64,000 nucleotides of DNA from Rallus limicola (lineage: Eukaryota > Chordata > Aves > Gruiformes > Rallidae), in contig JAKCOZ010000085.1 of assembly GCA_022605955.1 (NCBI GenBank), positions 1,240,001-1,304,000 on the forward strand. The letters run 5' to 3'. Shown here one piece after another: positions 15,501-56,188 of the stretch (positions are counted from its first letter, which is position 1; every line of letters starts with the position of its first letter). A program made the position numbers and the translations under genes. The notes under the pieces are model-generated. The model had not been told where the DNA came from, did not search any database, and saw only the letters and a list, made by a program, of their open reading frames with translations.

Positions 15501-17135
15501 ATGCAATTCCCAGGCGCGCTGTGACCAACGCTGATGGGCTCAGCCTTGGTCAGCAATGACTCCGGTTTTGAGCCGACTGGTGTTTGCTCTGCCGGACCTG
15601 CACAGAGCTTCTGGCTGTTTCTTCCAGCAGCCCCCCCTGCAGCCCCCCTCCTCCGCCTGAACCCAGCCACACAAAGCTGCAACAGCAAGCAAGAAGCACT
15701 ATAACAAACAGAGGTACTTTCACAAGCAAATTTCACGGCGATTCAACAATCCCTGCTGCTTTCCAAACAAAAAGTACTTGGTCATAAGAGCTCCCATCAG
15801 AACCCGTCTGTTGGAGCTTCACGGTGACAGAAAGCCACCCTGGGGGAGCTGTTGCATACACTGGAAATGACATCTTTTGGGGAGACACGCACAGCACAAG
15901 CCCTGCTGAACACTTACATCTGGCACCTCTATCTCCCAGTCTTGTGAAAACCTCCACACTGTTTCCCAAATGAAACAGTCCTCCAGAACACTGTGTTCCC
16001 CAATCCCAGCGCCAAAGCAAAGCAGACAATTACCAAGACCCCTCCTCCTCCAAGAGTAAGAGAACTCGGATCCTTTTTGGGAATGACGGGCTGCTGTCGG
16101 CTGTGAATTTACCATTATGGAATAACAGTAAAGCCTCTTTAGGAACTCCTGAAAAATAATCCTGACCAACTGGTGTGGGCAAAAGCAGCCCAGAAATTTT
16201 TTGATACACTTCAGAAGGAACTGATGAGAGCTCCAGCCTCGGGGCTGCCGGGCCTGACCAAACCCTTTAGGCTCTTTTTGCATGAGAAACCAGAAGCCCT
16301 GGCAGCTCCACGGTTGGGACCTTAGAGAAGAGCAGTGGCATACTTCTCTGAACAGCTGGATAAAGGCAGCAGGGGATGGCCAGCGTGTTTGCGAGCAGGA
16401 GCTGCCGGAATACTTCATGCTGGAGCAGCCCTGAAATTCCCTTTAGGCCAGAAGGGGACAGGAATGGTCTCTCAGACTGCGTCTGCTGCTCTGGAACAGA
16501 AGGGGGTTCATCGGCTTTCCCCACCCAGATTTCTGACACGCCCAGCTGTTCTCCTGGAGTCTGACGAGGTTGTGATTGAAGCAACTAACATTGGGAATCC
16601 AGCCTCCTTCCTCAGTGAAGCTACAACTGAACCACTGACACATGGTTGCTTGCAGACTATAGAAGCTGTGCTCACTTTAATGTGAACCATACAGCTCGAA
16701 CTTGGAGGTTGTGTTTCGACCCATGGAAAGGAAAAGCTTCTTGTCAAAAGACTTCCACACCAAGTGGGTGTCCACTCCCTGTCATTCAGGGATTAAGGAG
16801 AGATTTTTCATTTGACTCCACTCCTAAGCCATCATGGTGCTATGTGGAGATGGAAGGGCGTGAAAAGTATCACCACATAAACGGAGCGGAACACGTACCT
16901 CAGGAAATTGTCTTACTGAGGGTTGTTCTAGGCAAGATGCTTCTCTGAAGTTTTTAGCCCCCTCACCAGCTGTTGCTCCAGGCAGGCTGGAGCATTGATA
17001 CAGTGACAGAGTACTAAAAGCTTCAGTTCTGAGATTGTTCCTTCTAAACAAGCTTGACAACCAAGCAAAGTGATGGCAAAGTCTGTTTTCTGCACTGAGC
17101 GTGTGCAGAAACAAAAGGTTTATTCTTAGTGTCAT
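15501..17135. other. mixed-composition stretch, gene not recognised
   Basis: Open frames exist on both strands, the longest on the minus strand at 15819-16418 (199 aa, cysteine-rich). None carries a motif I can name, and I found no ordered splice pairs that would make a known protein. It may hold exons of a lineage-specific gene or a decayed one. Confidence 0.4.
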
Positions 17136-17682
17136 TAATTATTAACAAGAATACTTGTATACTTGAGATCATTAATATAAATATACTTTACTTGTGGGTA
17201 TTATGACAATACATTATTGTCATAGTACCCACACCCCCCTACACACACACTGGGAGGACTGGAGGGGCAACTGGGAGCCACTGGGAGGGGCAACTGGGAG
17301 CACTGGGGGGGCACTGGGGGAGGCAACTGGCAATACTGGGGGGGTACTGGGAGCACTGGTGAGCACAGCGTTGGGGGAGGCTTCTGGGAGAGGTTGAGGG
17401 GGGTGGAGGGTGTCCCTGTGGAAAATGGGAGGACGTGGAGGTCCTTCTGGGGGGGTGCCCCTCTGGGAGGGGGTTGAGGGGGACTCTGGGTGGACCTGGG
17501 GAAAATGGGGGGACCCTGGTGGTCCTTCTGGGGGGAGTGGGGAGGATGGGGGGGGCAAGGATGGATGGGGGGGGCATCCTGAAAGAATGGGGGGGGCGGT
17601 TCAGGCTTGGGGGGTGGAAATGGGGGGGGGGGGGGGAGGGGGAGTGTGTGTCTGGGGGACCATGGCTGTGCTTCCCCCCCAG

Positions 17683-18020
17683 CCCCCGAGGGATGAGCTG
17701 CTGTTCGAAGAGCAGAAGGTTTTTGGGGGGAGCCCCGGGCCTGGCACCGTCCTGCAGATACCGGGGGGTGGGACCCCCAAATCCCAGGGGGGTGTCTGTG
17801 TCATGTGCCCCACCCCAGACCTGCCCATGCTGGGGGGGCTGCACCTGACCGTGACCTGGTCCCTCTGTTCCCTCCCCCAGACACCCCCTCCCATCCCTAG
17901 ACATGCTGGGGGGGCTGTATCTGACCGTGCCCCACTCCCTGTGTCCGTCTCCCCACCCAGGCCTCCCCCTGGGACCTGGCCATGCTGGCCCCGTACATCC
18001 CCATGGATGCCCCCCCCCAC
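17683..18020 (+). CDS. HIF-alpha-like exons with LxxLAP oxygen-degron, copy A
   Basis: Two exon-like pieces. The first starts at 17683 after a CCCCCCCAG acceptor and encodes RDELLFEEQKVFGGSPGPG. The second starts at 17961 after CCCCACCCAG and encodes WDLAMLAPYIPMDAP. The string MLAPYIPMD is the core of the C-terminal oxygen-dependent degradation motif of HIF-1alpha and HIF-2alpha, where the proline of LxxLAP is hydroxylated by PHD enzymes and then bound by VHL. Both leucines and the proline of LxxLAP are present. The acidic residues that normally follow (MDDD or MDGED) are replaced by MDAPP and the frame soon ends. No bHLH, PAS or transactivation exon is in the window. This could be part of a HIF3A-like gene, a fragment, or a chance resemblance; the second copy at 38281-38480 argues against chance. 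Confidence 0.45.
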
Positions 18021-18069
18021 CCTCCCCATAATGGGGCAGGGGGGGTTAAACTGATAATGGGGGAGGGGG

Positions 18070-18591
18070 TGTGAGAAACTATGGGCTAGGGTATTGTTTA
18101 TTCAATGTAGAGGTTGCCAGACACCACTTGTGTAAGAGATTTATGTTAAGCTCAATGTATGCAAACAGCTACCAGACATCCCTTGTGTAAGATAAGATAA
18201 CCCAATCGCTTACACAAACGAAACCAGATAACCTTGTATAAGACAACAATCAGATGTCCAGGAACCAACAGAAACAGAACAAACAACCCCATATAAGGAC
18301 ATACGAGTGATGGGACAAAGGAGGAAGACTTCTTACTTTGACCTCAACGACCACCAAGAGGCAGAAAACGACCCCCCCTAACAACAACTGAAGCGTGCGC
18401 AGAGTACCGCCCCTACTTCATGAACACGGCAGTAAAGATGTATAAAAAGGGACGGTTTGAGCTGCTCAGCACGGCAGTTGGCGGAGCATAGACCCCCCTG
18501 CCGTCCAGCGCTGTCTTTGCTCATATTCTACTTGCTATAATTAATAAAATTTTAATTGGATTATGATCCATTGTGGTCTCAATTTATAACA
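18070..18591 (+). mobile_element. solo LTR of an endogenous retrovirus
   Basis: A 522-bp element starts TGTGAGAAAC and ends TTATAACA. It has a TATA box (TATAAAA, 18441-18447) and a polyadenylation signal (AATAAA, 18543-18548) in the right order, and is flanked by GGGGG on both sides (18065-18069 and 18592-18596), a plausible 5-bp target duplication although the site is G-rich. The paralogous unit near 38490-38520 lacks it, which gives an empty site. No internal retroviral sequence remains. It is unlike the LTR at 55379. Confidence 0.85.
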
Positions 18592-18839
18592 GGGGGAAAT
18601 AATGAGGGGGTCAATAATGAAGGAGCTCCCCCAACATCACAAACAGGTGGGTCCTGTAGCCGTGGTGCCCGAGGCCTCCTCCTTCTCCAGCACAGGGGCA
18701 GACCTGGGGCAGAGAGGCAGTGTGGGAACAAGGGGAGCCCCAGCTGCTCCCAGAGCGGCAGGCAGCAGCCCAGAGCAGGGCAGGGGCTCTGGGGCACAGG
18801 GAAGGGGAGCTGGGGCTGCCTGGAGCCGGAGCTCGGTAC

Positions 18840-20538
18840 CTGCGGCAAGCTGGAGGTGGTGAGGAAACGGGTCAGCCTGGCGATGCGTGCTGTGGCCCTC
18901 TCCTGCACCACTGCCGGCTGGGAACAGGTGAAGGGCAGCAGGAGCTGGGAGGAGAAAAGCTGCTGGTGTGCCAGGGAAGTGGGGTGGCACAGCACGGCAC
19001 AGCAGGCTTGCTCTAGGACAGTGCCTGGGATGGGGCACGGGTCCTCCTTGCCCCTCGCAGCAACCTGCTGAGGCCAGGCAGGTCCCTGCATCCCACTGCT
19101 GCTGGTGCCTCTGCTGCCTCCCGCTCACTAACCCCCCAAAAACATCCCTCTGCCCCCCACCCTAGGGCCCCAACGCTCTGCAGTAACAACCCCTGGGAAC
19201 CTGCAGTGGGAGCTCTGGGACACAGCCCCTGGTGAAGTCAGAGACCCCCAGGGCTGGGGTCTCCTTGCCAGACAGGCGGGTCCATCGGGGAGGGAATGTT
19301 AGGGGCAGGCTGGGGGTGCTGGGGGGGGGGGGCACCACTCAAGCTGGGAGTCACTGCCCATGGGGACCCTGTGCCAGACCTCCAAAATGTTCTGCAGCTC
19401 CAGGAGATCAAGGGTGCCATCTCTGTGGACCAGTGCCTGCAGCATCCCGTCCATGGCAGCCAGGGTCTGTGAGGGGATACAGAGTCTCAGGGGTGGCTCA
19501 GGAAGCCGGGGGGAGGTGGCCGTGGCCATGCAGTGCCCAGGAAGGGGCCTCCCTCCCACCGTGCTTCACCTCAGCACGTACCTGGGAGCAGAGGTCAGCT
19601 GTGGGGCCCTGGGTGTCCTTCTGCGCAGGCAGGTGGAAGGCGCTGCAGAAGCAGGTGTGCAGGAGGCTGCTCTTCTCCTGCAGCAGCAGCCCCGCTCTGC
19701 TGTGGGGACAGAGAGGTGCTCTTCAGACCCAGCAAGGAGCAGGCAGAGCTCAGGGCTGGAGACCTGGCCACACTGCCAGGGACATCTCAACCCCCGTGAC
19801 GCTGACACCGGCCTTTCGGGGGAAAACCCCGCGGAACCCCCTGCCCTGCTCTCTGCCTTCCGCTTGCCCTCGGGCCTGGAGATGCCCCCCACCCAGGAGC
19901 AGTGCCATCAGGGCCACCCGGCACCGCGGAGGCCACGCTGGGGCTTGGGGCAGGTACCTGATGGCGGCGATGGCCAGCATGGCTCGCTGCCGCACCATGG
20001 TGCCCAGGCGGTCAGCAGGCTCCTCTTGCAGCAGCACCTGGGGAGCACGGCAGGGTGGGACGGGTTGGCACCCTGGAACAGCTCTCTCCCCGCCCCAGAC
20101 AAGCCCCCTTCTGCCCCCAGGGCTGTGTCCCTGCCCCTGCCCCAGCCTGGCTGGCTGTCCCCTCACCTTGATGGCCTCCAACACCTCCTCCACAGGGAAG
20201 CACGCTTGGTGGCCCGCAGTGGAGTCCGTCCTGGTGATGCCGCAGATGGTGCAGACAGAGGCCAGAAAGCTCAGGTTCTGGTTTCTTTTCTGCCAGCCAG
20301 GGAGGGGACAGACGGACAGACAGGGTCAGGAGAGAGACAGTGTGTGCAGGGCTGCCCAGCACAGCCCCCGTAAGCCTCTCAGCACAGGATGGGGACAGAC
20401 AGACCAGCTGGAAGCCAGCTAGATGCAGCCTTGGAGAAGTGGCCACAGATACCTCTGGTCTGCTCCTGAGGAAGGCCTGGATGTTTTCCAGGGCTTTCAT
20501 TTCCTCCCTGGACATGGCCATGCAGGAGCAGCCCAAAT
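18840..20538 (-). pseudogene. MROH-family gene, truncated second copy (exons 2-7)
   Basis: Six exons match exons 2-7 of the long MROH gene in order, length and phase: 20453-20538, 20167-20289, 19958-20037 (80 nt, identical to its partner), 19582-19699, 19380-19466 and 18840-18944 (105 nt, identical). Peptides include MALENIQAF-like ALENIQAFLRSR, VLLQEEPADRLG and VVQERATARIARLTRF, typical of HEAT-repeat helices in maestro heat-like proteins. No frameshift or stop is seen within these exons. An exon 8 start may lie near 18715 (CTGCCCCAG acceptor), but its conserved core is absent and the homology stops at about 18640, where the HIF-like duplicated unit begins. No first exon was found. The copy cannot make a full protein from this window, so I call it a truncated copy. 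Confidence 0.8.
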
Positions 20539-20689
20539 CTGGCCAAGAGAGAGCAGTCAGGGCTGGGGGCAGGTGGGGCAACCCAAGCCCTTTTCCCCAG
20601 CTCCCGGGGATGTCAGCAGCCCAGTTTCAAGGCTGGGTCACTGGTTTCCCCTTTGAGCCCCAGGGATGAGGGTGCAATGCTGGGGAGCA

Positions 20690-20960: not shown

Positions 20961-20996
20961 CCCTCCAGTGTCCCCCCAGTCCCTCCCTGTCCCCAC

Positions 20997-21370
20997 CTGG
21001 CTTTGCTCTGGCACTTGCACTTCCTGCCTGGCAGAGGGACATGAGAGGGGATGTGTCACCACCCTGTCAATCCACCCGGGTGACACCGAGCCCAAGTGGC
21101 ACCCTGGGCACCCACAGGTGATACCAGGACCCCCCCAGTGACACAAGGACCCAGAGTGACACAGGGACCTCTCAGGTGACATCCCAAGTGACACAGGGAC
21201 ACCCCCCGATCACCCCCAAGTGACACAGGTGACCCCCAGGTGACACAATGACCTTCCCAGTGGCTGTCCCCCTCCCAGTGTCTTTCACTCAGGACAATGA
21301 CACCGATGACACCCAGGATGGCAGCCACCATCAGCCCGGCCACACCCAGGTGGTGGGGGATGACAGCAGT
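20997..21370 (-). CDS. FXYD-like single-pass membrane regulator exons, copy A
   Basis: Two exons. The membrane exon (end at 21289, donor GTGAAA; its 5' end is not fixed, taken as about 21370) encodes HHLGVAGLMVAAILGVIGVI then VL. The next exon, 20997-21027 (31 nt, acceptor TCTGCCAG, donor GTGGGG), joins in phase to give SRKCKCQSKAR. The pattern GxxGLxxAxxLxxxGxxxxLSRKCKC is the transmembrane signature of FXYD proteins, which modulate the Na,K-ATPase. The FXYD motif itself should lie just upstream but I cannot see it, and no AG acceptor is obvious near the membrane segment. It lies 0.4 kb downstream of TMEM145-like exons on the same strand. It may be a fragment or part of a chimeric transcript. 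Confidence 0.6.
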
Positions 21371-21785
21371 GTCCCCAGGGGGGGGTGACAGGGGTGGGTG
21401 TCCCCAGACTGGCCCCCCAATCCCCCTGATCTTCCCCATGCCTCCCTTAGCCACCCCTGCCTCAGTTTACCCACCCCCGCCTTGGCCTACTCCCCCACAC
21501 CCCCAAAACTCCACACCCCATCCCCCCATCCCAGCCCCCATTCCTACCTTACCCACCCCTCCCTCAGTTTACCCCCAGTCCTGCCTCAGTTTACCCCCCC
21601 ACCTTGGGGTACACCCCCACCCCTCAATAACCCCCCCCACTGCCTTACTCACCCCTGCCTCAATTTACACTCACCCACCTTGCAGTACCCCCCCACACTG
21701 CCTCGGGGACCCCTCCCCCACCTCGGGGTACCCCCCCCAGTAACCCCCCAACCTCCCCCTAATAGCCCCTCCCCACCCTGCCCAC
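21371..21785. other. C-rich spacer between FXYD-like and TMEM145-like exons
   Basis: A C-rich tract with repeated ACCCCTGCCTCA(G)TTTACCC words, intronic in character. The same words recur near 21930-22000 and 22400-22450. No coding signal. Confidence 0.6.
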
Positions 21786-22409
<624 letters not shown>

Positions 22410-22645
22410 TTACCCACACCCCTGCCTCGATGTACTCATCCCTGCCTCTGGGTACCCCCCCCCCTCATCCCCTGATGCCACCAGTCCCTTCCAGTAAGGG
22501 GGACGGGGAGGGTACTGGGGGCTGAGGGGGGCAACTGGCACCGCCCCGGGGCTGGGGGCACGGGACGGGCAGACACCCGCCGGCACCGCGCCGGGGCAAC
22601 TTTCCAGGGGAGGCAACTGGGTGAGGCCAACCTGGGTGGGAGCAC

Positions 22646-25600
22646 TCATCTGCAGCACCAAAGCCATGGCCTTGGCAGCCGTGAGCTCCGCCGTGGCTGG
22701 GCAGGTCTTGACTCCGGCCTTTGGGCAATGAGGAGCCTCTGCTTGGCCAAGGAGGAGACCATAGGACTGCAGTCTGTCTCCGCTCTTTGCAGGGCTGTGG
22801 GGACAAAGTGGCATAGTGAGGTGACAGCCCTGTGTCCCCTCCAGGCAGGGCACGTTGCCCCCCCAGGGGGAGGAGGGGAGCCAGGAGGCAGGTGGCTCAG
22901 CTGGAAGCTGCTGGTAAGGAATGACTCCCCCAGAAACAGCCCCCTCCCCAGAGAGGTGCTGGGAGCACAGCCCCCCTCATCCAGGCTGAGGGAGGTGTCC
23001 ATGGCAGCCACCTTCCTCTTCCTCACTGCCCTCACTCACCCTCTATGATCTCCTCCTTCTTCTCAGGCTCAGCCACGTGCTCTGAAAGGAGCCCTGTGGG
23101 GACAGACAGAGGTTGTCAGGGACCCTGACGCCCGTCAGTGACCCTGCACCCTGACAGGGACCCTGCCCCCCAGCCCGCACAGCTCCCCGGCTGACCCTGG
23201 GGTGCAGCAGCAGGGAGGGGACAGAGGAGCCTCCCTCCAGCCCCAACTGTGCAACCAGGGCGGGGAGCAGGGGAAGGAGCATCCCACAGGTCCTGTGCTG
23301 GGGATCAGGGACCCCGGACAGGAAGGGACCCCGGGCTCGTGGCTCACCAATGAACCTGACGGCCTCGCAGCGCAGGGGCTCCTGTGGGCTGTGCAGGTAG
23401 GGCAGGCTCTGCTGCAGGTAGAGGTCGGCCCTGCTCCTCTGCCTGGACAGCTGGGGAGAGGAGAAGAGCACAGGCTGGGCACAGAGCTGCCCCCCAGTCA
23501 GGCCACCTCCTGCTGAGGGCCCTGGGGACACGAGGGGCCATCCCAGCACCAGGCTCCCCTTTGGGAGCACGGGGCTGAGGGCAGCCTGCAGCAGAGCCCT
23601 CCGTGTCCTGGTGCCGCTGGGCACAGGGCAGGGCTGGCCCAGGGCAGATCCCGGGGCGCTGGGGCTGTGCTTACCAGGCACTCTCTGATCAAGCAGCCAT
23701 GCCTGGGCTGCTCCAGCTGCTTCAGCTGCCTCCACTTCAGGAACCAGCCGGCAGTGTGCAGGGCGTCCAGGGAGGCCTGGGGAGCAGCAGAGATGTCACC
23801 ACCACCGCCGGCCAGGGACACAGGACCCCGTGTCCCCCCTCCTGGCCGGGCTCAGGGCCCGTCCCAGCCCATGCAGGGCAGAGGCACCAGCTGAGGAGCA
23901 ATGCTGCAGCCCGGTGCAGCCCCGCGGGGGAAGAGGGGGGAGACCGCCCTCTCTGCCTGGAAGCCCGGCAGCACTCCAGCGCTTGGGTCTTGGTGGCCCC
24001 AGGCTGCTGCAGAGCAGTGCCTGAGTCCCTGGGGCTGCAGGAAGCCCAGGCAGGGGCTGTGCGGAGGCAGCTGCGCGGGAAAGGGACCCACCTCCCCACC
24101 CAGCAGGGCAGCAGGAGCACAAAGGCACCAGTGGGCAGGGAGGGGGCTCTGCCTGCTCCATGGGACTGGGCAAGCACCTCGCAGTGACACGCCTTCGAAA
24201 GGCTCCAGGCAGGCATTGTCCTGCCCAAAGGAGCGCTCAGGTCGAGAATCTCACCTGGGCCACGCTCTCGTCCTGCTCATGCAGGTGAAAGAGCAGCAGC
24301 AGCAGGCTGTCCCACACCTCCTCCTCCATCGGCCTCTTCTCATCACCCACCACCTGCTCCATCATGGTTCGGAAGACATGGATAGAGAGCTCCCGCACGG
24401 TGCCCAGCTCCTGCGGGAGGAGGGGAGGAAGACCTCAGCCCCCAGCTCATGGCCAGCAAGGGCCTGACCTGGGGATGGACAATCCCTCAAAGGGCTGCGG
24501 GCAGCCCTGCTCCAAAAGCGAGTGAGCTGTGGCACGTAGCAGGTCCACCCAGGGGGCTGGAGGTCAGAGAGGGGAGCCCTGTGAAGGGATGAGGCATGCT
24601 GCCAGGGCAGGGTGCACATCAGGGGGGCTCAGCACACTCGCCACCATCCTGCCACCACCATTTCCCATCTCCAAGCCAGGGTGAGTCCCCATGGGGGTAG
24701 ACAGGGATGGACACATGCAGCCCAGAGCTGCTGGGGGCAGCAGTGAGTGGGGCAGGGGACAAAGCATCCCCCTCAGAGGGCAGGGGTTGTGTCAGGGGGT
24801 GCAAATGGAGGTGCCCGGGGCAGGGGGGAACAGGGCTCTTCCCAGCCTTACGCTGTTGAAGAGCAGACGGAGCTTGCCAGCCAGCGGCAGGGCGGTGGGA
24901 TTGAACACCCTGTACATGAGCATTTCATAGAGCATCTGCAGGGCCGCGGTGCTGATGTCCCCGTCAGCACTGTCCAGGCGCTCCATGACACAGGGCAGCA
25001 GGACGAGGGTTTTCTGTGCCTGGGGGAGACACACACCGACTTGTTGTAAAGCAGCTACTGATGGCTGGGGTGGAAGTGCTCTCTGTGAATGCCAGCCTGC
25101 CCGCTGGCAGAGGGCTGGGCAAGCAAGGGAGCTGGCAGCAGCTGGCACAGCTCCCAAGGCTGGGAAAAGCCCGAGCTGTCCCACTGCCCGCTGCTCCAGC
25201 TGGGGGGCTGCTGTCCCGCCTGTCCCCTGCTCACCATTCTGGGCCGCTGGATGAGGCTGAGCATGCCCCTGAGCACCAGTCTGGACATCCCCGGGCACTG
25301 GCTCCGCAGATACCTGGGGAAGATTTCCAGGGCCCCGTCCAGCTCATCTTTGTCAGCGCAGTCCAGTATCTGAAACACAGGCGGGAGCTGCTGAGGTGGG
25401 TGCTGGCTCCAGCCATCAGCTCAGGGCAAAGGTGCCGGGGAAAAGACCAAGCCCGCATAGAGGCGGCAGGATGGCAGAGAGCCCCCGGGCCTCACGCCAC
25501 ATGCCACTGCTTGCTCCACGGTACCAGCCAGAGCCACCCGCTGCCCCAGCCCCTCTGGCAGCTGAGGGCATGGGAGAGCCGAGCCTTGCAGGGAGCTGGG

Positions 25601-28600
25601 GCCGCTGCCGTTGGGCTCACCTCCACGAGGAAGGCCATGGCCACCCTCTCCCTGGTGGGGTCCTCCACCCGCAGGAGCTGTACCAGGTGGCGGGCGATGG
25701 GGGAGAGCAGGGGTCTTGGGATGTTCTTCATCTCCCTGGCAGGGGGAAGGAGGCACTGTCAGGCCTGAGCCGGCTGGGCACCTATCTTTGGGGCTTGCGC
25801 CAGCCTCACGTCACCAGTCTGCAGCGCTGCTTTGCAGACACGGGGACCCCCTGCCCTCAGCCCCAAGAGAGGGGGTGGCGTGGGGTGCCTGGTCCCACAG
25901 AGCACAGGGAAGGGGCTCTCACCTGGCAATGGTGCCCACTCCCTCGAGGTGGGTCTGGGTGCTGAGCAGAGCATCCCAGGCCCCCTGCGCCTCGATGGCC
26001 TGCACCACGCTCTCATGGCCCAGGCGGCAGAGCAGCATTTTCATGGCCTGCACCGCAGACCTGTGCAAGGAGAGAGAAACGCTCAGCTCCCACGGGCCTG
26101 GTGCTGGGCAGCTGGCAGGGATGAGAGGGCAGGGATGGAGCACCTGATGGGGGTGAGCTGACACCCTTGCTGCCTCTGCCAGATCTCCACCTCCTGCCGC
26201 AGCAGCTCCCTGTCCCACTCCACTTGGAAAAGGAGTGCCAGGAAAAGCTGAGGGAAAAATGCCTCCACCACCTCCCTCTGCAGGCCTTCGAATGACAGGA
26301 CCTCACATACTGCCCTGGCTGCCTGGAGAAGACACACACACACCAAGATGTAGCCATGGCCACTCAGAAAGCCAAGAGCAGGCAGGAGAGCAGGGTGGGG
26401 GCAGAGAGCTGAGAGCACCCTGGGGGTCAGCAAGGAGTCATCCAGCCACTCACAGCCAGGGACAGGACAAGGGGTTCCTCCTCCATGGAGGTCTCAGGTG
26501 GCAGCCGCATCGTTAGGATGCTGACCAGCTCCTGCAGCACCTTCTCTGCCCTATCAGAGGATGAGAACACCTCTTCCCACATGCGCCTGGAGACCCTGCG
26601 GGGACCAAGGACTCTGTCAGTGGGGCACCAACAGAGGACGGCCACGCTCAAGGCCCTGCGGAGGGTCTGGAGGCCCCTCTGCCAGTAGCAGAGAAGACCC
26701 AGAGGCTGCTGGGCCACGTACTGGTCGCATGTTGGGGAGCACTGCAGCAGGCTGACCACCACCACCCTGGGGTAGTTGCCTGTCAGCAACCGCAGGACAC
26801 TGCTAAGGCTGCCGACGGCCATCCAACTCCTACGGGCTGCCAGGTTCCTGTAGATGGTCCAGACGATTTTCTGCACCTGGAGACGTGGGTGGAAGTGGGG
26901 ATGTCACAGGGTGAGCGCAGCCATTTCCCCAGCTCCTGCTGGGAGCTGCTTCCATTCCCATTGCAGGATGCTGCCAGCACGAGACTGCATCAGGGCTGGC
27001 CCAGTGCGTTGCCAGGGGAGCAACAGGCCCCGGGTGGGCTGTTGCCACCCACAGGGTCCTCACCTGCTCCGGCTCTAAGGCATTGTTTGCCACAAGGACA
27101 GCCACCATATTGGCAGCCACTGGGATGCTGGAGGCACTCTGGCATCTCAGGGTCCCCAGGGCCAGGAGGATGACGTCCACCCATTCAGAGGTGGGGAGGT
27201 ATCTCATGACTGCCTGCGGGACGAAGGAGCGGAAGGAACGTTTGTCACCCAGAGCATCACCCAGAGCACCTCAGCTGCACGGGGAGAGTGGGACGCAGAG
27301 CCAGGCTGCACTAGGGAGCAGAGCTGGGGAGGGGGGAGCAGGGTCCCGTGGGGAACAGGAGCTGGCTGGGGGACTTGGCCTAGTCCCCGCTCAGGAGAAG
27401 TGCAAGCCCCCAGCACCCCAATGCGCTGTGTGTCCCTTCACTCCCCCAAACCCCCTGGCCGGGAGCTGCCGGCACTTCTTACCAAGATGATTTCCAGGGC
27501 TTCCCGGTGCTCCAAGAACTGCCTGAGCTTCTGGGGCTGACAGTCCTCCTGGAGCCCTTCTCCATCTTGCAGGCAGGGACATGTGCCTGGGGAGGAGAAA
27601 AACTGGGTTGCTCAGAGAGAGGGGACAGACCTGGAGGTGCAGCATGAGAGCGTCGGGCTGCAAAGTCCCTGGCAAAGAAAGAGGGCAGCCGGCCAGGTGC
27701 AGGGAGCCGACAGCCAGGGAGGTGCAGGGCTCTCGTGAGCAGGGGTGAGGGGAGATGGCTTTTCAGGCTGGCAGGCATCTGTGGTCCCCAAAGAAACCAA
27801 AGTTAGTACAACAGAAGACTCTCCTGCCAAAAGGAGACTCTTTCTGTGGAATAATATACGTTAATTTTTGTTCTTTTTATTCATACTGTATTTCAACATG
27901 AAGCTGAAATTACATGTTCTTTGTTGAAGTGTACCTGCACCTTCCTGGTCTAGAAGGAATATTCCAGCAAAAGCAGGAACACCCAGAACAGATGCTTTCT
28001 AGTATGGAAAGCACAGAACAGGAGCCAAGCAAAAACTATGGTTTAAAAAACACCTTAGAAGAAAAATTAAAAAAAAAAAAAGCAGCCAGAAACACACCCC
28101 ATGCCCCCCCCCAACATTTGGGCTCTTTAAAACAGATGTCTATTTTTCCTTTCCTGCAGTGGTCATTTTCAATAAAGACACTGAAACCATGCGAAGGTAG
28201 CACATCCATTTCTAATTCCCAAATTGTTATTCTGTTGGCTTCTGCAATTTCTAATTGCACCCCCCCCCCTTTTTTTTTTTTGTTTTAATTACCCTCTAGC
28301 AGCAGCATATGCACAAAGTTTAGACCCATCCAAGGGAGGTTCGTAAGACGAGCTGTCAGACTAACTCAAGTGAAAGGAAGTGTCTGTCTGAATGACTCTA
28401 AATCTCTGGAGGAATTCCATGGAACTGCCTCTGCTTTTGTAACTACAAGCACACAGGGCAAAGGATCCTGCACCCATCTGAACATCCAGAAGAGACAGCC
28501 TGTCGGTTTGACCCTGGTCGTGCTACGCTCATTGACAGGTTCTCTTACATTTTATGTTCATAGGAAAACAAGTTAATGACAATGAGAAATAAAAACCTAG

Positions 28601-31600
28601 CATATTATTATACTCAGTGTAGGAGCCTTAATTCTTACAGAAATAATAACAGTTGTGGACATTATGAATAACTTTAAGTGTCATACAGCCTTACAGGGGA
28701 AACAACAGCTGTGGGGGGTTTCTTTTTTAGGAACAGAAAAACTTGTTTTCTCTGGACATGTTCCTGTAGCCTATAGATGTTTGGGAGATGGATTGTTTAT
28801 TGTAAAAAAACAACCTACTAACTACACAGAGTAGATTTTTCTGTAGAGCGAATGTTTCCCCGAGGGAAGAAGCCCTCGTGGCTTTGGGGGCCAGTACCTG
28901 TCTCCTTGTGGAGGGAACCTCAACAGGCTGCTGCTCACATCGGTGAGGTACTCCTCGCTCATCCTGAGCAGGAGCAACTCCACGCTCTGCCGGGCTGACA
29001 CCGTGGTGATGCTCTGCAAGTGTCCGGCGATGCAGCTCATGATCTCTGGCACCTGGAGGGGCCACAGGTGAGGATGCTGCCGCTGCTGGAACACAGCCCT
29101 TCCCTCGGCTGCCCTTCCGGTCCCTCTGTGCTGCCTTGAAGTGGCTTCAGGTGCCCAAGAGCACCTTCCCACTGCTGGGGAAGGAAGGAGGGAGGGACAG
29201 TGCCTGATGGGCAGGAACATCCAGCCACAGGCCACTTACCTCCTTCAGCCAGCAGCCAGGGTCCATCACGACCCAATCCACGACTTTTCTGGCTGCTTCC
29301 TTTCCAAAGATGCTGGAGTCTCTCATCGCCTCGATGGTCGTGAGGACGATGCCTGTCCTCTCAGCAGGTCGGAGGTAAGGCGCAAGGGACTATGGGAGGA
29401 AGGAAGGGAGCGAAGCCATGTCACACTGAGCGCTCTGAGGGCGCTGCTCAGCCGGGCAGCACCAGCAGCCCTGGCGAGAGACGCCCGGCACATTGGGAGC
29501 GGTGCCTGAAGGAAACTGGCAGTGGGGACTGTGGTCACTGCACGGGGGAGGATGAGGAGAGAGGGCCTCCAGGCTGAGGGACGAGGGGTGGGCTCGTGGG
29601 CACAGTGTGCCAGCCCTATGGCAAACCAGGGCTTGCTATGGCCAGGAGGGCTGGAGCTGCTGCTGGCACAGAGGAGCGCAGCCCCTGGCATCGTCCCTGC
29701 TCAGAGGCGGTAGGAACCCTCTCGCCAGGGACGCTGAGGCCACACCAGCCCTGCCGGTTCTGGACGCCTTTGTTCGCACCAGGCTCCTGTGCGTGCCACA
29801 GACAAGAGCCCCAGCGAGGGGGGAGGGGGGAGCTCGTTACCCTTATCAAGTCTCTGGTGCTGGGTTCCTGCAGACTGGAGTTGGCATCAGGTTGGCAATC
29901 GAGCTGTTCTTGTGGTGCTTTAAGCTTTGCCGTTGCCCTGCCTTGAGTGAGGAGAACACACACAGGCGTCAGTCAGACATGGCAGCTTCCCCAGCGAGCT
30001 TCCCAAACCGCCCCGAGTTGTATCCTGCCACCTTGTGAGCACAAGCGGCCAAGGAGATTCCTGCAGGCTGTCAGCAAGAGCTGCTGGCTACCAGCACCAG
30101 AGGCAGCAGCCAGGCTGAGGCACAGGTGGCCCTGCTCTTCACTAACAGGGAAGAATATGGCTTCGGGACATGGCATTCAACGGCAGCTTGGGCTGTGGGG
30201 ACTTCAAACCAGTGGGCTTCGAGATCCGGAACAGAGGGAGGAAGGAATGCTCCAGGAGAGCACTCAGCTTCAGCAGCAAAAGGAGAGGCCTATCAGGAGC
30301 TGTCTGTGTGCGGAGGGATGAAGCCCCACACAAGACTCTTACTTTTTTGGCGCTGGAAGAAGTTGCTGAGGTGAAGAAGAGCAATCATGGCTTGGCCGCT
30401 TACGCATCCCTCGCAAGACTGGAAAAGGAGGAGCCGTCCCAGCAGCTGTCTCAGGATTGGGATCTGGAGCTCTCCATAGCAGATGGGGCCACACACATCA
30501 TCTCTCTCCAAGTGGTGCCAGTTCTGGGTGAGGGAAGCGGAACAGCACAAGGAAGGGGTGAGGGCAGGAAGCTGGTGCCAAAGCCCCAAGCCCAAGAGTG
30601 TGTCCAGGGCTGGATCCCTGCCATGCTGGACACAGCTCCCAAAGCAGCTAGCTAGGCAGCAGCTGGAAATGCAGGGAGAGCTGCAGGCTGCTCTGGTGTG
30701 CAGGGAGGGGAAGATGGCCTGGCTGGAGGCTGCCTGGTCCTTACATCCATTGTAGGGTTCTTGGACAAAACACAGCACAGCTGCTGAATCCTTCCCACAG
30801 CCCTCTCCTGCACCTCTGGACTCTCAGAATCTGTGAAGTTCAGCAGCATCTGGGGAGAGAGAAGCTGCTGGTGTGCCAGGGAGCAGCCAGCCACTTCAGG
30901 AGCAGCAGCAGCATTGCTCAGCTCCTGGGCTGGACTCACACTGGTCCATCAAGGCTTTCTCTGACCTGGAGCAAAGCCTTTTCTTTCCCCACAGGCCCCT
31001 CGAAGGTGTGGGACAAGCTGCCCCAGGCCAACCTCGAGGCCAGGCAGGGAGGCAGATGCCTCGCTCTGCAGCCACTGTGCTCTGGAAGAGCCCGGAGGGC
31101 ACCCTCCCTGCTGGGTGCTCTCTCTGCAGGGCACTGGTGTCAGGACCACCCACTCAAGAGTGGACACCCCTTTCCCCCCAGGGCGAGGAACAGCCCCTGT
31201 GAAGACCACTCTTGCGTGCACCAGACCTGGAAGAGACTCTGCAGCTCCCCAGTGACTCTGGACATAGAATAACTGAGCACCACGGCGCAGAGCATTTTGT
31301 CCGTGGCTGACATGGTCTGCAAGGAAGACAGAGAGCAATGGCATGCTTCCTGCTGTCCCTCCCACGCCAGATGACTGATCTCAACTCCCAGAGCCAAGGA
31401 AGGACTCTTGTGCTGCCTCACAGTGCCCAGGGCAGACAATCCATGGTGGCCAGTCTGCAGCACTGGACGTGGCCAGGCCCACAGGGTGAAGGGAGGAGGG
31501 TGGGAAAGCAGAGCAGAGCCCATGGTCCTGCCTCAGATCTCTGGCTGTATTGCAGCACGGGGTGGCCAAGGAGCAGCCCCGAGGGACTGGGGGGGCTCCT

Positions 31601-33020
31601 GTAGCTTCCCCTGCACTTACCTTATCATAGAGCCACCTGCCGGTCTTCCCCTGGATTTCCTCTTCCGGAGGAAGGAAAAACACGCTGCAGAAGGAGGCTT
31701 CTAGGAGGCTTTTCTCTTTGCCCTCCAGCACCGTCCCCACTGAGCTGCACGGAGTGAGAGGGGCCGGTCAGACTGTGGTGCTGGGAGCCGTGCCTCGAGG
31801 CCTTGTGCAAGCGGACAGGGACCTCTGGGGCAGGGGTCCCCAGGAGGGATGGGCAGGTACCTCAATTCAGTAATGGCACCCATGGCTTTTTCTCGCAACG
31901 TTGTGCAGAGTTGGTGTCTGGGCTCTGCTTCCAGCAGCCCCTGCCGAGCACAACCGGGATGGGACTGTGCAGGTGCCAGCACCCAGTGCCACCGGACCCT
32001 CGCCCTGCCTCCCGGGGTGCTGGGGAGCCTTGCCCCCTTCCCCAGAGCCACCGGGTGTCCCCTCACCTTGATCTTCTCTACCAACTCGTATCTCTGGCAG
32101 AGCCCAGCCAGGTCCTGTGAGCAGCCCCTCAGGTAGGCCATTTTGCACAGGGAGATGAGGCTTCCAAGAAACATCATCTTCTGTTCGTGGTCCTGCCAAC
32201 CAGGGGAACCGGGAGACAAAGAGGGAGCATGAAGTGGGGGACGCAGCCAGCAGGACCGGAGCACGGAGGGTGCAGTTCCACGTGGGAGGCCGGCGCTCTG
32301 CCCAGCCAGCACTCCTCCAGCAGCCCGGCAGCAGAGCCCCTGCCAGCGGCACAGCCACGCTTGCCATGACCATGGTTACCGGTTCTGGGCTCCTGAGAAA
32401 GTCTGCGATGAAGAACGTGTATTCCACTAGCTCAGAGCGCGCTGCTGACCAGCATGCATTGCCTAAAGGAGAAGAGCGGGGAGGGCTGTAGAGAGGTCTG
32501 GTGGCAAGAGAGAGCAGAGGAAGGAGCTCTGCCCTCCAGCCAGCCCCACACCCGCTCCCCTGGCGCGGTCGTTCGGTGCCTGACAGGGTGCCCAGCACAC
32601 AGTCTGCAATGCTGGAGCCAGTGTGGCAGGGAAAGCCCCCATGGGCTGGGCTGAGGCACCCACAGCGTTGCTGCCTCCCGCCCACCCAGATGCATCTCGC
32701 TGCCAGTGCTGTGGGGCAGCATCTGGGTCCCCCCCGCTCCCTCCTCCTCTGCTCAGGCCAGCTCCCAGCCTCGAGCAGCTCTGGCACTCAGGCAGCACTG
32801 TGCCCGCTCCCCACGGGGCCCCTGCTGCCAGCCTGCTGGGCAAACGTGATGGTGGGGTCGAGCAGGGTGCGCCCGCAGGCCCCAGCCCTGCCCAGACCAA
32901 CCGGGCCCCTCACTCACTACGCAGCAGCGACTGGATCATGTCCCGCTCATCAGGCTCCAGTGGAGAGCTGCTCTTCTGGGAATCCTTATCCTCTTCCCAG
33001 TCCACAGTGGTCCTCTCCAT
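22646..33020 (-). CDS. maestro heat-like repeat (MROH) family gene
   Basis: A multi-exon gene encoding tandem HEAT-type helices, family of unknown biochemical role. Exons from the ATG (33018-33020): 32918-33020, 32380-32462, 32067-32192, 31861-31940, 31621-31744, 31227-31316, 30745-30849, 30343-30523, then triplet alpha 29841-29941, 29240-29389, 28898-29052, triplet beta 27483-27586, 27064-27213, 26722-26876, then 26454-26595, 26144-26322, 25923-26060, 25621-25735, 25235-25369, 24852-25019, 24255-24410, 23675-23776, 23348-23450, 23040-23093 and 22646-22794 (TGA at 22646-22648). All frames are open and nearly all splice sites are consensus; 31227 uses GTCTGG, as does its paralogue. Hallmarks are YLRPAERTGIVLTTIEAM, SVELLLLRMSEEY, SRADLYLQQSLPYL and DCSPMVSSLA. 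Using either triplet alone keeps the frame; using both breaks it. About 1,000 codons. Confidence 0.85.
26722..27586 (-). repeat. MROH exon triplet beta (duplicate of exons 9-11)
   Basis: Exons 27483-27586 (2-nt start, ends in frame), 27064-27213 (150 nt) and 26722-26876 (155 nt) correspond to triplet alpha: its last two exons are also 150 and 155 nt and its first also starts with 2 nt. Peptides are paralogous but far apart (RYLPTSEWVDVILLALGTLR against PYLRPAERTGIVLTTIEAMR). The first exon needs an upstream exon ending with 1 nt, which exon 8 (30343-30523) supplies but exon 11 does not. Confidence 0.8.
27840..28880. other. AT-rich island between the two MROH exon triplets
   Basis: About 1 kb of AT-rich DNA inside an otherwise GC-rich gene, with poly-A, poly-C and poly-T runs (for example 28065-28083 and 28260-28280). 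A minus-strand frame at 28036-28260 is open but I recognise nothing in it. It separates triplet alpha from triplet beta and may be an insertion or a rearrangement junction. Confidence 0.5.
28898..29941 (-). repeat. MROH exon triplet alpha (exons 9-11)
   Basis: Exons 29841-29941 (101 nt), 29240-29389 (150 nt) and 28898-29052 (155 nt). Exon 8 ends with 1 nt and exon 9 starts with 2, so they join in frame. The third exon ends with 2 nt; it fits exon 26454-26595 (1-nt start) but not triplet beta (2-nt start). The choice of CAAG at 29942-29945 as acceptor of the first exon was fixed by phase. Confidence 0.8.
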
Positions 33021-33309
33021 CCTGAGGAACAGAGGAAAGGGCTGGAGCTGGGAAATTGGAAGCTTTGGCCAAGCGCCTCGGCACTGCGACTCTGCTGGGC
33101 ACAGCGGGGAAAGATGTGAGCTGAGCCCAGGGGCTCCTCTGGGGAGGAACCTTGCTTTCTCCAGCTCTGAGGATGTCCTGTCCCTGGCAGGAGCCAGCGC
33201 CAGCAAGGTACCGAGGGGGTTCCTTCTCCCTGAGGTTTCAGGCCAGGGATGTCTGTCAGGCCTGGCTGTTTTGCTTTGGGAGCGACTGCTGGACGTTTAG
33301 CATGTTTGA

Positions 33310-33600
33310 AATTGAACAGTGTCCCCAGTAGCCCCCCTCTTGTCCCTAACGCCCCCCCATGTTCCCCCAGTGTCCACCAAGTCTTCCCATATCCCAGTGT
33401 CATCCCAGTTCCACCACATCCCCATATCCCCCTGTGTCCACCATTGTTCCCTGTGTCCCCAGTGTCCCCAACATCCCACTGTGTCCCAAACATCCCCCAT
33501 GTGCCTCTGTGCCCCCTCAGTGTCCTGTCCAGTCCCCCCAGTCTCCTTCCAGACCCTCCAGTGTCCCCTTCCAGACCCTCCAGTGTCCCCCAGCACCCAC
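33310..33600 (-). repeat. C-rich minisatellite (CCAGTGTCCCC type), inverted relative to copy A
   Basis: Imperfect units of CCCCAGTGTCC. A run such as TCCCATATCCCAGTGTCATC here is near-identical to the reverse complement of 20880-20920, whereas the adjoining FXYD-like exon has the same orientation in both copies. Confidence 0.8.
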
Positions 33601-33631
33601 CTGGATTTGCTCTGGCACTTGCAGTTCCCAC
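33601..33631 (-). pseudogene. FXYD-like cytoplasmic exon, copy B
   Basis: A 31-nt exon with the same splice sites and phase as 20997-21027, encoding SGNCKCQSKSR. The membrane exon present in copy A is missing here: only about 140 bp separate this exon from the TMEM145-like exon at 33773-33842. The unit is therefore incomplete. Confidence 0.6.
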
Positions 33632-33772
33632 CTGGCAGAGGGACATGAGAGGGGACATGTCACGACCCTGTCAAACCACTGCCTTGGGGACCCCTCCCCC
33701 GCCTTGGGGTACCCTCCCCACCACCAGTAACCCCCCAAACTCCCCCTAAGAGACGCCCTCGCCCCACACCCA

Positions 33773-34293
33773 ACTCATTGGCCAAGAAGTGGCAGCTCCA
33801 GAACAATTTCCCATTGGTCAGCACCAGCTCCAGCCCGTCCCACTGGGGGGGTCCCCAAAACTCAGGGGGGGGGGAAATTCAGTGGGTCCCCAAGAGTTGA
33901 GGGTGTATGGCAGGGATGGGTAAACTGAGGCAGGAATAGGGTAAATTCAGGCATGGATGGGGGAACTGAGGCAGGGGCAGGCAAAGGGGTGCTTTGGGAA
34001 GGAGGGGTCCTCCTTTATTTTGGGGGGTCCAACTCACCCCACACTTGCTGAGCGCCACCTGCCACCAGCGCTCCTGCACGGAGAGGAAGCTCCGCCCACT
34101 GGAGCAGCACAGGAATTGCACCGAATCCTCCCGCAGCACCTTGGGAGGAAAGGGGGCGTCAGAGGGACCCTCAAATATTGGGGGACCCCCCACGGAAACC
34201 CCAATACCGGCACCTCAACTAGGCGTACTGGGTGGCCAGGTTGATGACCTGGTTGTTCTCCGGGCGGATCACTGACTCTTTGGTCAGGCAGCC
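33773..34293 (-). pseudogene. TMEM145: TMEM145-like exons, copy B, disabled
   Basis: Exons 34208-34293 ([19 protein letters not shown]), 34038-34139 ([20 protein letters not shown]) and about 33773-33842 (a GKLFWSCHF segment) match copy A and human TMEM145. An in-frame TAG at 34219-34221 replaces the tryptophan codon after QYA, and the donor after the third exon has lost its GT (copy A has GAGTT then GTGGGC; here GAGTT then GGGTGT). The codon that is a stop in copy A (RERWW then TAG) is CAG here, so the two copies were disabled separately. Confidence 0.85.
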
Positions 34294-34477
34294 CTGGGAT
34301 GGGGGGTTAAATTGAGGGGGGGGGGCACCCCCGTGGTGGGACACTCCACCCCTGCCTCTAAGTACCCTTCCCTGCCTCTGGGTACCCACCCACCATCCCC
34401 CGATGCCACCAGTCCCTTCCAGTACGGGGGACGGAGAGGGTACTGGAGAGGGGTGGGGGTGGGAGGGGCCGCCGCCG

Positions 34478-36902: not shown

Positions 36903-37658
36903 TTAACCTACTGGAGGTTTTGGTTTATAGTTCTGTTGCTTTAAGCTTCTGGAGGAAATCCAGGAGGCAGAACTCCCATTTTTCTTTGTGAACCTCTTTT
37001 TTTTGAAAGTATTGACAAGCAACTCCAGAGCAGCAAGTACTCCACCTGGACAGCTACGTGCCTTAGTGCACGTTGCAGCTTCTTGTGGTATCATGCTTAA
37101 AGATGTTTCAAGGAGGCAGCTGCACAGGATTACAGAAAGAAAGAGAAGTTCATGCTTGCTTTTGCATAAGACTGAGTCCTCAGAGCCTGGAGGGCTGGAA
37201 CCCAACCAATCCCACTTGCCCCAGCGTGTACCTTGTGCTGAATCTCTGCTGTAGCCAGTGTCAGGCATAGGTAGCTGTATGGAGACACAAGTGAATTGAT
37301 TCGGATGCTCCTCCTTGGAGCGCGTTACCAAGGTGCTTAATGCTGGAGCCCTGGTCTCTGCCAGACAGTAACTTTGAAGGTACTTGTTAATTTGAGCGTC
37401 TCCTCTTAGTTCAGAATAAATAATCAATAAAGTTCTTGGGTTTGTAGGTATGTGTGAATGCTGATCTTGTCTCAAAGAACTTGGCTCGTGCTCACGACAG
37501 TACAGGGAGGTCTGCAGATTATCAGGAGAATGAAACTTCATGAAATGTTGAGTCCCTTCCAGTGAAAATTGTTGATCCTGCCCTTGCTTCCAGGCCACCA
37601 CTCTTTCATGAGAAGCTATCAACAAATCTTGAAACGTGTGGAACCACTTGTGTCTCAA
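36903..37658 (-). other. long open frame (251 codons), not recognised
   Basis: An uninterrupted minus-strand frame in DNA of moderate GC content, longer than expected by chance. It has no domain I recognise, a plus-strand frame overlaps it at 36988-37254, and no promoter or polyadenylation signal can be tied to it. It may be a relic of a gene, an intronless copy, or chance. Confidence 0.25.
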
Positions 37659-38560
37659 ATTATTAATAATACTTGTATACTTGAAATACTAAATAGAAAT
37701 ATACTTCAATAATAATACATTGTTGTCATAATACCCACAGCCTCCCCCACACACACACTGGGAGCAATGGGGGGGCAACTTGGAGCACTGGGCAGCACTG
37801 GGAGCATGGGGGGGGGCAACTGGGAGCACTTAGGGGCTGCTGGGGGAGGCAACTGGGAGCACTGGGGCAGCACTGGGAGAACTGAGGTGGCAGTGGGGTG
37901 GCAACTGGGAGTACTGGGGTGTCCATGGGGGCATATGTGGCTGCTGGGGGGTCCATGGGGGGTCCCTGTGGTGCCCCCCGAGTGACGTCACCCACAGGGG
38001 TGAGGGTCTGTGAGTGCTGGGGGGGGGGGGGGTCCTTGGGGGTCTGTGGGTGCAGGAGGGGTCCTTCTGGAGGGGGTTCTCCCTCTGGGAAGGGGGTTGA
38101 GGGGGACTCTGGGGGGGCCTGAGGAAAATGAGGGGACCCTGGTGGTCCTTCTGGGGGGGTGGGGAGGATGGGGGGGCATCCTGAAAGAATGTTGGGGGGG
38201 GCAGTTTGGGCTTAGGGGGTGGAAATAGGAGGGGGGGTGTCTGGGGTACCATGGTTGTGCCCCCCCACCCCCCCCCCCAGGGATGAGCTGCTGTTCGAGG
38301 TGCAGAAGCTTTTTGGGGGGAGCCTCAGGCCTGGCACTGTTCTGCAGTTGTGGCGGGGGGGCAGAGGCTGGCACCCCCAAATCCCAGGGGGGCATCCATC
38401 CCCCCTCCCCTAAGCCTCCCCCCCCGACATGGCCATGCTGGCCCCCTACATCCCCATGGACGCCCCCCCATAATGGGGCAGGGTGGTTAAACTGGTAAGG
38501 AGGGAGAGGTCAATAATGAGGGAGGCAATAATGAAGGGGGCAATAAAGGGGGGCCAGTAA
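37655..38560 (+). repeat. HIF-like duplicated unit, copy B
   Basis: Direct duplicate of 17140-18640, with the same order of landmarks. At the point where copy A carries the solo LTR, copy B reads straight through from the AACTGGTAAGGAGGG segment into the CAATAATGAGGG tract. Confidence 0.85.
38281..38480 (+). CDS. HIF-alpha-like exons with LAPYIPMD, copy B
   Basis: Exon-like piece from 38281 encodes RDELLFEVQKLFGGSLRPG, and 38419-38473 encodes DMAMLAPYIPMDAPP before a TAA. The first leucine of the LxxLAP motif is methionine here (MAMLAP), and no AG acceptor stands directly before the second piece (copy A has CCCACCCAG). This copy therefore looks more decayed than copy A. The identity rests on the nine-residue MLAPYIPMD match to the HIF C-terminal degron. 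Confidence 0.4.
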
Positions 38561-42590: not shown

Positions 42591-43917
42591 GCAGCAACTA
42601 AAAGCTAGTAAGCACGACAGATGAAGCAGAACTCCAAAAGCTCAGCCATAAGTAATCTCCACGCAGTTCACTCCTCAGTACTCTCACGAGCTCAGGGAAG
42701 AGCCACCACCTTTCTGCTGGATGTCTGCTGTGCAGCAAAACTAAAACCAGCTTCTACAATTTCCAGAGCCTGGAAGCAACAGAAGATTCCTTCTAAGAAA
42801 CAAACCAAACAGAAATCCCCAAACCAGAGTTCTGTGAAGCACAGCCTGTCATCCCCTCTTTCCCCCAGGGCAGCAAGTCTCTAAAGGCAACAGGTGTTGT
42901 ATATACAAGAAAGAATCTGTAAGATGATCCACCTGACAGCCAGCATTTCATTCCTTGAAATGGAAGTTTTAGGGATGAGGGTGAGATGTGCCCTGTTGGA
43001 GCCAGTGGCACCTTCTCGACGTTTCCACAGGCCACAAAGCAGACTTCCACACTTCCACCTGACGTAACCTTGTGCACCAGAGCACGGTACCAGTTCCCAT
43101 CATCTAACTTGAGAAATTAAAAAACAAACCAACAGCTTTATGCCTTTACAAGAAAATAAGTGTGGGTAAACTTATTAAATGAATCCAATTCTCTGCTACC
43201 CTCCACCAATCCAAAGGATCAGATGTCCATTCCCTCCCCCCTTGGCTCTGCCTTCACCCTTTAAAATCTGTTACTTACCTGAGAAGAAAGCACAGCAGGG
43301 CTCTCCATTCTGAGGCTTAAATACATTTGGGGGAGTTTTCTGACAGAATTCAGACAATGCTTTGGTAAGTACTTTTAGAGCAAGTAACTCTGAAAATTAG
43401 AAAGAAAAAACTCCAGAGACAAGATCAACCAAATCAGCTGATTGAAGCTGCATCAATACTGTATACTTTGCAGATCAACGTTCGAAGTTGTGGGGAATCT
43501 CCCACTCAGATTTTTAGAAAAGAACTCTTGACACCAAGTTGAAGAGGTAACTTACTAGAGAGACATTAGCAGCAAAAGGGGAGAGAGCTGGTATTTACTG
43601 ACAAATTAGTTCAGTATGGGTGCAAAATGACCGATCCTTCTTCCCACTAATCTGACAAGCGCCCTCTACTCCAAAACCTAAAGCATCTTCTACAGCCAGA
43701 TGAAACCATGGGAATGATCTGGTTTACCCACTGCATATTACAGATTATGGGATCTCATCCTTCTTATTTTTTATCAGGTCTTTTAGCATGCTCTAAAGCA
43801 TCACTTTCGGGGGGAAGTCACTCATGCTTTAAAGGCAGCACACCACAAAGCATCTATTCCCTGACTCATCTAGGGATAGTGTCGATTTCCCTTAGTTGAA
43901 GATCTGCCCTAGAAGTG

Positions 43918-55378: not shown

Positions 55379-56167
55379 TGTGACGGTATGCTTCTCCCTG
55401 TTACCCCCATGTTTTCTTGACTTTCCTGTATATAGGATTGATTGATAACCACCGGTGTTGATTGGGATTATCTGCATCCGTCTCACAGTGAGTGCAGGAA
55501 GACAGATAACACCACAATAGCCAAGGGTTATCTACGCTAATGTGCCCACCTGGACACTGGTCAGTGTCCACTGGCATCTACGGGTGGGATGTGGATATGA
55601 CTATGAGCCAATCATCTTACTCCATAAATAGTGAGCAGTCCAAGAGCCCTCTGAGCTCTCCTGAGACGACAGCGGGCTGCACGACAGGATCTCCCCTGGA
55701 AAGGGACGCCTCTCAAGGTGACTCCTCGAGGTCCAGAGAATCCTTGCCGCAACAGATCTGCAACAGATCCTTGGTGAGTGAGTTGGGAATACGTGCACTA
55801 ACATTTGTGATCTGAGCTAAGCAATATAAAGGGTTGAATGTATATATAATCCTTTAGACAGAAACCGTTGACCAAGTCTGGGACTAAGACTGAATCCAGC
55901 TGCACCCAGGCTCCTCTCTGAGACGAGTTTAGAAAGCAAGGGGATTCTTTCTGAACCTCGTGACTCAACGGGAGGGTCTCCCTGAGAAACTCATCTGACC
56001 CTGTTCTCTCTGCACTAACTAATCGGGATCACCTTACTATCGAATCCTAATCATTGTCACGTTTATTACCAAACACCGAAACATCCTTTTGTTTTATATC
56101 AATAAACATATTACTGCCTCTCTCTTAAGAGTGAAGTGCATCCCTCTTCTCTATCCCATCTGTGACA
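55379..56167 (+). mobile_element. 5' LTR of an endogenous retrovirus
   Basis: A 789-bp LTR starting TGTGACGGTATG and ending CTGTGACA, with a TATA-like CATAAATA at 55623-55630 and AATAAA at 56101-56106. It is directly followed by a primer-binding site. No matching 3' LTR was found downstream, so the right boundary and target duplication are unknown. Confidence 0.85.
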
Positions 56168-56170
56168 AAT

Positions 56171-56188
56171 CGGCGTAGTCGGCAGGAT
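56171..56188 (+). promoter_or_regulatory. retroviral primer-binding site, tRNA-Ser type
   Basis: CGGCGTAGTCGGCAGGAT matches, at 17 of 18 positions, the complement of the 3' end of vertebrate tRNA-Ser (ending GACTACG plus CCA). It starts 3 nt after the LTR. Its last two bases are the A and T of the gag start codon. Confidence 0.8.

Follow-up and report, generated by a model that had tools for sequence, protein, structure and literature searches.

Mutually exclusive exons, as characterised in the accessible sections of PMC5740500 and PMC3228551, are adjoining homologous exons of compatible phase whose joint use shifts the reading frame. Two cautions accompany this description, as far as those sections go: assignment requires splice-junction reads to both flanking exons (PMC5740500), and a published predictor treats combinations of several duplicated exons as false positives that in all probability stem from trans-spliced genes or from genes duplicated in tandem (PMC3228551). 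Here we analyse a 64,000-nt stretch of DNA from Rallus limicola (hereafter the window, to which all coordinates refer), in which a gene of the MROH (Maestro HEAT-repeat) family contains two successive sets of three homologous exons, alpha and beta. A sequence-only reading had taken these sets for mutually exclusive cassettes within one MROH gene, and had named a fusion of two MROH copies as the alternative. Our analysis indicates, with a probability of about 0.9, that the locus is a junction between two parents: the front of one MROH gene (type I, E1-E11) would lie head to tail before the back of another (type II, E9-E22), so that the same three exons appear twice. This figure applies to the two-parent junction only; what caused it, and whether the assembly is correct, have to be inferred separately.

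The likeness to mutually exclusive exons is considerable. On the minus strand, the alpha triplet (28898-29941) consists of exons 29941-29841 (101 nt), 29389-29240 (150 nt) and 29052-28898 (155 nt), and the beta triplet (26722-27586) of exons 27586-27483 (104 nt), 27213-27064 (150 nt) and 26876-26722 (155 nt); between them lies a junction interval of 1311 nt (27587-28897). One nucleotide of an incomplete codon remains at the end of the preceding exon, E8 (30523-30343; 181 nt); each triplet opens and closes with 2 nt of a split codon, and E12 (26595-26454) opens with 1 nt. In the gene as drawn, all 25 acceptors are AG and all 24 donors GT. From the ATG at 33020 to the stop ending at 22646 the frame is open when only one triplet is used, giving 912 aa for alpha and 913 aa for beta, and inclusion of all six triplet exons leads to a stop after 476 codons. 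Between alpha and beta, no candidate for a frame-restoring exon was found by a strict search for 25-400 nt with a length of 2 mod 3 between a pyrimidine-rich acceptor and a GTRAG-type donor, weaker sites not having been tried. Our reconstruction of exons and frames thus reproduces the coordinates, lengths, phases and frame conflict on which the sequence-only reading was built. Its frame logic holds insofar as alpha followed by beta shifts the frame, but the specificity claimed for it was too high: 13 of the 64 subsets of the six triplet exons are in frame and open from E1 to E18, including mixed sets such as alpha1-alpha2-beta2-beta3.

The homology of the two sets was likewise borne out. The alignment of the alpha and beta peptides covers 124 aa with a single gap and shows 24% identity (E = 1e-6 when the two sequences are compared by themselves), and the Pfam profile PF21047 (HEAT_Maestro) is matched by E8 plus alpha on positions 32-209 and by beta plus E12 on positions 88-229. 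The scores of 80.6 and 62.7 bits, against a curated cut-off of 27.4, place both parts in the MROH family. Because alpha and beta occupy the same part of the profile, a stretch that occurs once in the family model occurs twice here, and the pairwise alignment together with this shared region puts their paralogy above chance.

To place the two sets we relied on homologous proteins. Three protein searches, two of which scored only the candidates with most shared words, gave 74, 71 and 35 matches and a total of 125 distinct proteins. Most are named MROH or carry Maestro-type domains, some being hypothetical or otherwise named, and we take the organisms named for them, by recognised genus names, to be birds. 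On the sequences compared, bird MROH proteins form two clades, type I and type II. The triplet of 74 proteins resembles beta more and that of 44 resembles alpha more; seven have no triplet match. The 74 beta-preferring (type II) proteins share 39-57% identity with E12-E18 of the window, whereas their front halves differ from it, with 29-46% (median 34%) identity to E1-E8 in the 56 matching proteins. Type I proteins, with Dromaius and Struthio left out of the calculation, are like the window in front, with 36-58% (median 46%) identity to E1-E8 in 40 matching proteins, and differ in the back half, with 24-40% (median 35%) identity to E12-E18 in 38 matching proteins and no good matches to E13-E15. 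They resemble alpha with identities of up to 67%, a value observed over 134 columns with P0071 of Porphyrio hochstetteri. In a set of 43 type II proteins, mean identity to the window is 46% for beta2 plus beta3 and 54% for E12-E18, and PF21047 is listed for most type II matches, as it is for the window gene. Type II proteins occur in records named MROH1, MROH5, MROH6 and MROH7 (for example P0001 from Ciconia, P0002 from Theristicus and P0009 from Harpia); examples of type I are P0029 from Mycteria, P0040 from Buteo, P0071 from Porphyrio and many copies from Columba.

Comparison of each exon's peptide, by score, with 22 proteins of type I and 43 of type II showed a single change of type along the gene. 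The upstream exons are E1-E8 (minus strand, 30343-33021), namely 33021-32918, 32462-32380, 32192-32067 and 31940-31861 (E1-E4), 31744-31621, 31316-31227 and 30849-30745 (E5-E7) and E8, followed by the alpha triplet; type I was best for 11 of these 11. The downstream exons are the beta triplet and E12-E22, which run on the same strand (22646-26595) and are open to a stop: E12, then 26322-26144, 26060-25923, 25735-25621 and 25369-25235 (E13-E16), and 25019-24852, 24410-24255, 23776-23675, 23450-23348, 23093-23040 and 22794-22646 (E17-E22). Type II was best for all 13 that were scored (beta1-3, E12-E20 and E22), E21 having been left out. Some margins are narrow: 38 versus 34 for E2 and 74 versus 66 for E4 in favour of type I, and for E22, where type II scored best, the medians are almost equal (31 versus 30). 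Moreover, the lists of type I and type II proteins were hand-picked by their scores to the same segments of the window, so that this exon test is not independent. Trees are therefore the better check.

The trees point to the same switch. In a triplet tree of 115 rows (113 of the 125 proteins plus the two window rows, 12 proteins having been dropped because the match was absent or short), alpha falls within type I beside Porphyrio P0071 and beta within type II, in an alignment of few columns that leaves many forks unresolved. A more careful triplet tree of 47 hand-picked rows separates type I from type II with support of 100/100 and in 100% of 200 bootstrap trees, and makes alpha the sister of Porphyrio (100/99). 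For the halves outside the triplets, two quick trees, with 42 and 43 rows, assign E1-E8 to type I and E12-E18 to type II, and a careful front-half tree of 46 rows again places E1-E8 in type I, with Mycteria (98/85). The type I proteins P0035 and P0043 lie nearer to type II in the quick front tree, drawn with midpoint rooting, but not in the careful one. The window sequences have long end branches, 0.99 for beta, 0.60 for E12-E18 and 0.87 (careful tree) or 0.74 (quick tree) for E1-E8, and a second MROH front in the window, described below, has one of 0.57 in the careful front tree; the window copies are therefore either fast-evolving or from a poorly sampled bird. Taken together, the front and back halves fall in different paralogue clades, with a single switch point between alpha3 and beta1, and alpha and beta correspond to exons 9-11 of a type I gene and exons 9-11 of a type II gene, respectively.

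These results bear directly on the proposal that a three-exon duplication within one MROH gene gave rise to mutually exclusive cassettes. The shared lengths of 150 and 155 nt, the equal phases and the frame shift upon joint use are what such a duplication would leave, but the same lengths and phases would be inherited by any pair of MROH paralogues. A within-gene origin would place alpha and beta together, whereas they lie in separate clades of whole genes: when they were forced together in the 47-row tree, the log likelihood fell by 80.6 and the union was rejected (p-AU 0.000401). The only escape for an exon duplication inside one gene would be gene conversion that rewrote one triplet together with its flanks, given that the exons preceding alpha and those following beta change type as well. 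In addition, PMC3228551, in its accessible sections, rates multi-exon combinations of this kind as probable false positives. We therefore give the within-gene proposal hardly any credence. What had been read as alternative exons of one gene are, by exon scores and trees, the same exons of two MROH genes, and the fusion that had been mentioned as the alternative is supported as regards origin. Compared with the systems in PMC5740500 and PMC3228551, as far as their accessible sections describe them, the locus shares compatible splice sites and phases and differs in having two source genes rather than alternatives that arose in one, in having three exons per set, and in being known here from sequence alone.

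The age of the arrangement can be judged from relatives. Both ends could be assigned a type in 91 of the 125 proteins (56 II-II-II, 33 I-I-I and two II-I-II for front, triplet and back), one end or the triplet being missing in the other 34. A type I front combined with a type II back was found in none of the 91; as these are gene models, often incomplete, its absence is not proven. The two II-I-II proteins, P0039 from Dromaius and P0048 from Struthio, have near-tied triplet scores (74 versus 69 and 70 versus 63) and branch outside the type II clade, and for these reasons we read them as pre-dating the split of the types and excluded them from the type labels. P0077 from Lophotis, which stood out with 46% identity over the front half, was considered as a carrier of the chimera, but the tree assigns that half to type II. 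The alpha-like triplet of Porphyrio continues into a type I back half, both by sequence and in the back-half tree, so that the simplest dating puts the join later than the divergence from the Porphyrio lineage. The duplication had been called old; this is right for the duplication of the genes, whereas the juxtaposition of the two triplets looks younger.

How might such a junction have come about? If the breakpoints in the two genes overlapped by three exons, apparent cassettes would be the result. A deletion or a more complex rearrangement would have removed the back of the type I gene and the front of the type II gene, with some 1.1 kb of AT-rich sequence remaining between the joined parts. 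The junction interval contains an AT-rich part at about 28870-27810, where GC content is about 0.3-0.5 compared with about 0.6 on either side, the change being stepwise. By tblastn with six type I proteins (E<=1) and four of type II (E<=1e-3), no type I exon from 12 onwards and no type II exon 8 was found in this interval. Across the window, the six type I proteins gave only cross-matches to type II exons for the type I back half at E<=1, and one match at 57609-57526 is at chance level (E = 0.35). Inverted repeats, considered as RNA pairing by which a choice between the triplets could be forced, number 37 and are weak, the longest among the matches listed being 40 nt at 70%; scans of the window for tRNA genes and Rfam families gave no matches.

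Another possibility is that two units of an array were misjoined by the assembler, in which case the junction would be in the file and not in the bird. The sequence is tandem, GC-rich and repeat-rich, and past the type II back half there follows, in the same strand order, the front of a second type II MROH gene that is cut in exon 8. On the other hand, the window contains no N, and blastn found within it no second copy of the junction interval that could have misled an assembler. We regard a misjoin as rather improbable; neither it nor a functional fusion, considered below, would be incompatible with the two-parent junction.

With regard to the product of the two-parent junction, consecutive splicing would join alpha to beta, shift the frame and lead to a stop 43 codons past the join codon, and such a transcript would be an expected target of nonsense-mediated decay. 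If the donor of alpha3 is left unused, a stop is reached 24 codons after the split codon, and an AATAAA lies beyond it at 28801; owing to this early stop and signal, a shortened type I transcript could end in the junction interval. The most likely outcome, judged from these predicted transcripts, is a type I protein cut short, or else nothing stable, with a possible minority of chimeric protein in which one triplet is skipped.

Several observations, besides the dependence of the exon test on its protein lists, weigh against the reading set out above. The breakpoints are inferred and not mapped on intact parents from this species. The absence of N notwithstanding, an assembly error retains some probability. 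The position of beta inside type II is unsure at a branch length of 0.99. Furthermore, both halves are fully open (432 and 615 codons, zero stops), and dead remnants would rarely keep open halves with canonical splice sites unless they had been joined not long ago. In an assumed neutral model in which indels are a tenth as frequent as substitutions and four in five of them shift the frame, the probability of finding both halves intact is about 0.01 when neutral changes per site number 0.01, and about 1e-4 when they number 0.02. Selection on the halves therefore either persists or ended only recently. Their intactness fits a young dead join as well as a living chimera, and does not discriminate between them.

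A living chimera would mean that the fusion has been fixed, with a type I promoter driving a gene that runs to a type II end, and that one triplet, or each in turn, is skipped. This is unlikely. A full-length frame exists with either triplet, and both have diverged about as far as expected from their own halves: alpha has type I residuals within about 0.12 (sd 0.08), and beta has a type II mean residual of -0.025 (pairwise sd 0.045). Relaxed decay of one triplet would appear as excess divergence relative to its own half; no clear excess was found, and neither triplet thus shows signs of long abandonment. However, the co-ordinated skipping of three exons would be required, a clean choice would not be enforced by the frame in view of the 13 open subsets, none of the 91 typable relatives has the chimera, and the intact frames may reflect nothing more than a young join. 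A more specific version, in which the fusion created a working three-exon mutually exclusive cassette that yields both alpha and beta proteins while alpha-beta joins are lost to nonsense-mediated decay, seems to us highly improbable. If true, it would make gene fusion, not exon duplication, a route by which mutually exclusive exons are born.

The surroundings of the two-parent junction are rich in partial duplicates, a setting that suits rearrangement. Upstream of E1 lies a TMEM145-like fragment (minus strand, 33554-34446; PF21892 TMEM145_N, E = 1e-11), a second copy of which (minus strand, 20961-22518) was identified by its likeness to the first and not by a Pfam scan of its own; the copies match at 81-83% in DNA, and each has an in-frame stop. 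A HIF-like block is present at 37650-38509 and at 17129-18068 (minus strand; 73-78% DNA identity in four pieces), the former matching the HIF-1 profile PF11413 weakly, at 20.1 bits against a cut-off of 27. Past the type II back half, the order on the same strand is TMEM145-like copy 2, the second MROH front and the HIF-like block. The second MROH front (minus strand, 18620-20569) extends from E2 to part of E8, was identified by tblastn, PF23210 and the tree, and is type II in seven of its seven pieces before it is cut off inside exon 8. Together with the type II back half (27586-22646) it makes up nearly one gene, with the order swapped and on one strand. Adjoining the break in exon 8 is a segment of about 520 bp (18070-18591) which begins with TG and ends with CA between two runs of CCCCC and has, by eye, the look of a solo long terminal repeat. 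In the intron before exon 7, about 33 nt are near-identical between the front of type I and that of type II (30800-30882 and 18895-18977), while identity between the exon 7 peptides is only about one half; gene conversion or a retained branch-point region is perhaps the reason. Further away, an open frame at 42796-43116 (minus strand) contains a Tudor domain (PF00567, E = 1.1e-11), and overlapping open frames at 56166-57401 (plus strand) resemble, by eye, the gag gene of an endogenous retrovirus, with no Pfam match at 0.001. The region from 14000 to 40000 is a GC-rich island (0.51-0.71 in 2-kb steps, flanks 0.36-0.50), like a microchromosome-like piece in other DNA.

Neither the two types of bird MROH proteins nor this fusion was found in the literature among the titles and abstract openings listed, which is no proof of absence from print. 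The accessible part of PMC10172847 names MROH1 once, among the genes of the germline-restricted chromosome of the blue tit. By the standards of PMC3228551 and PMC5740500, as their accessible sections set them out, the locus is a junction of gene duplicates: the observation is real and its cause is ordinary. The signs by which mutually exclusive exons are recognised, that is, equal length and phase, homology and a frame shift upon joint use, arise automatically where paralogous genes join, and calls of mutually exclusive exons in tandem arrays should therefore be preceded by a tree of the flanking exons. Were the chimera expressed, this multi-copy, fast-diverging family would be one that naturally gains a new protein through fusion.

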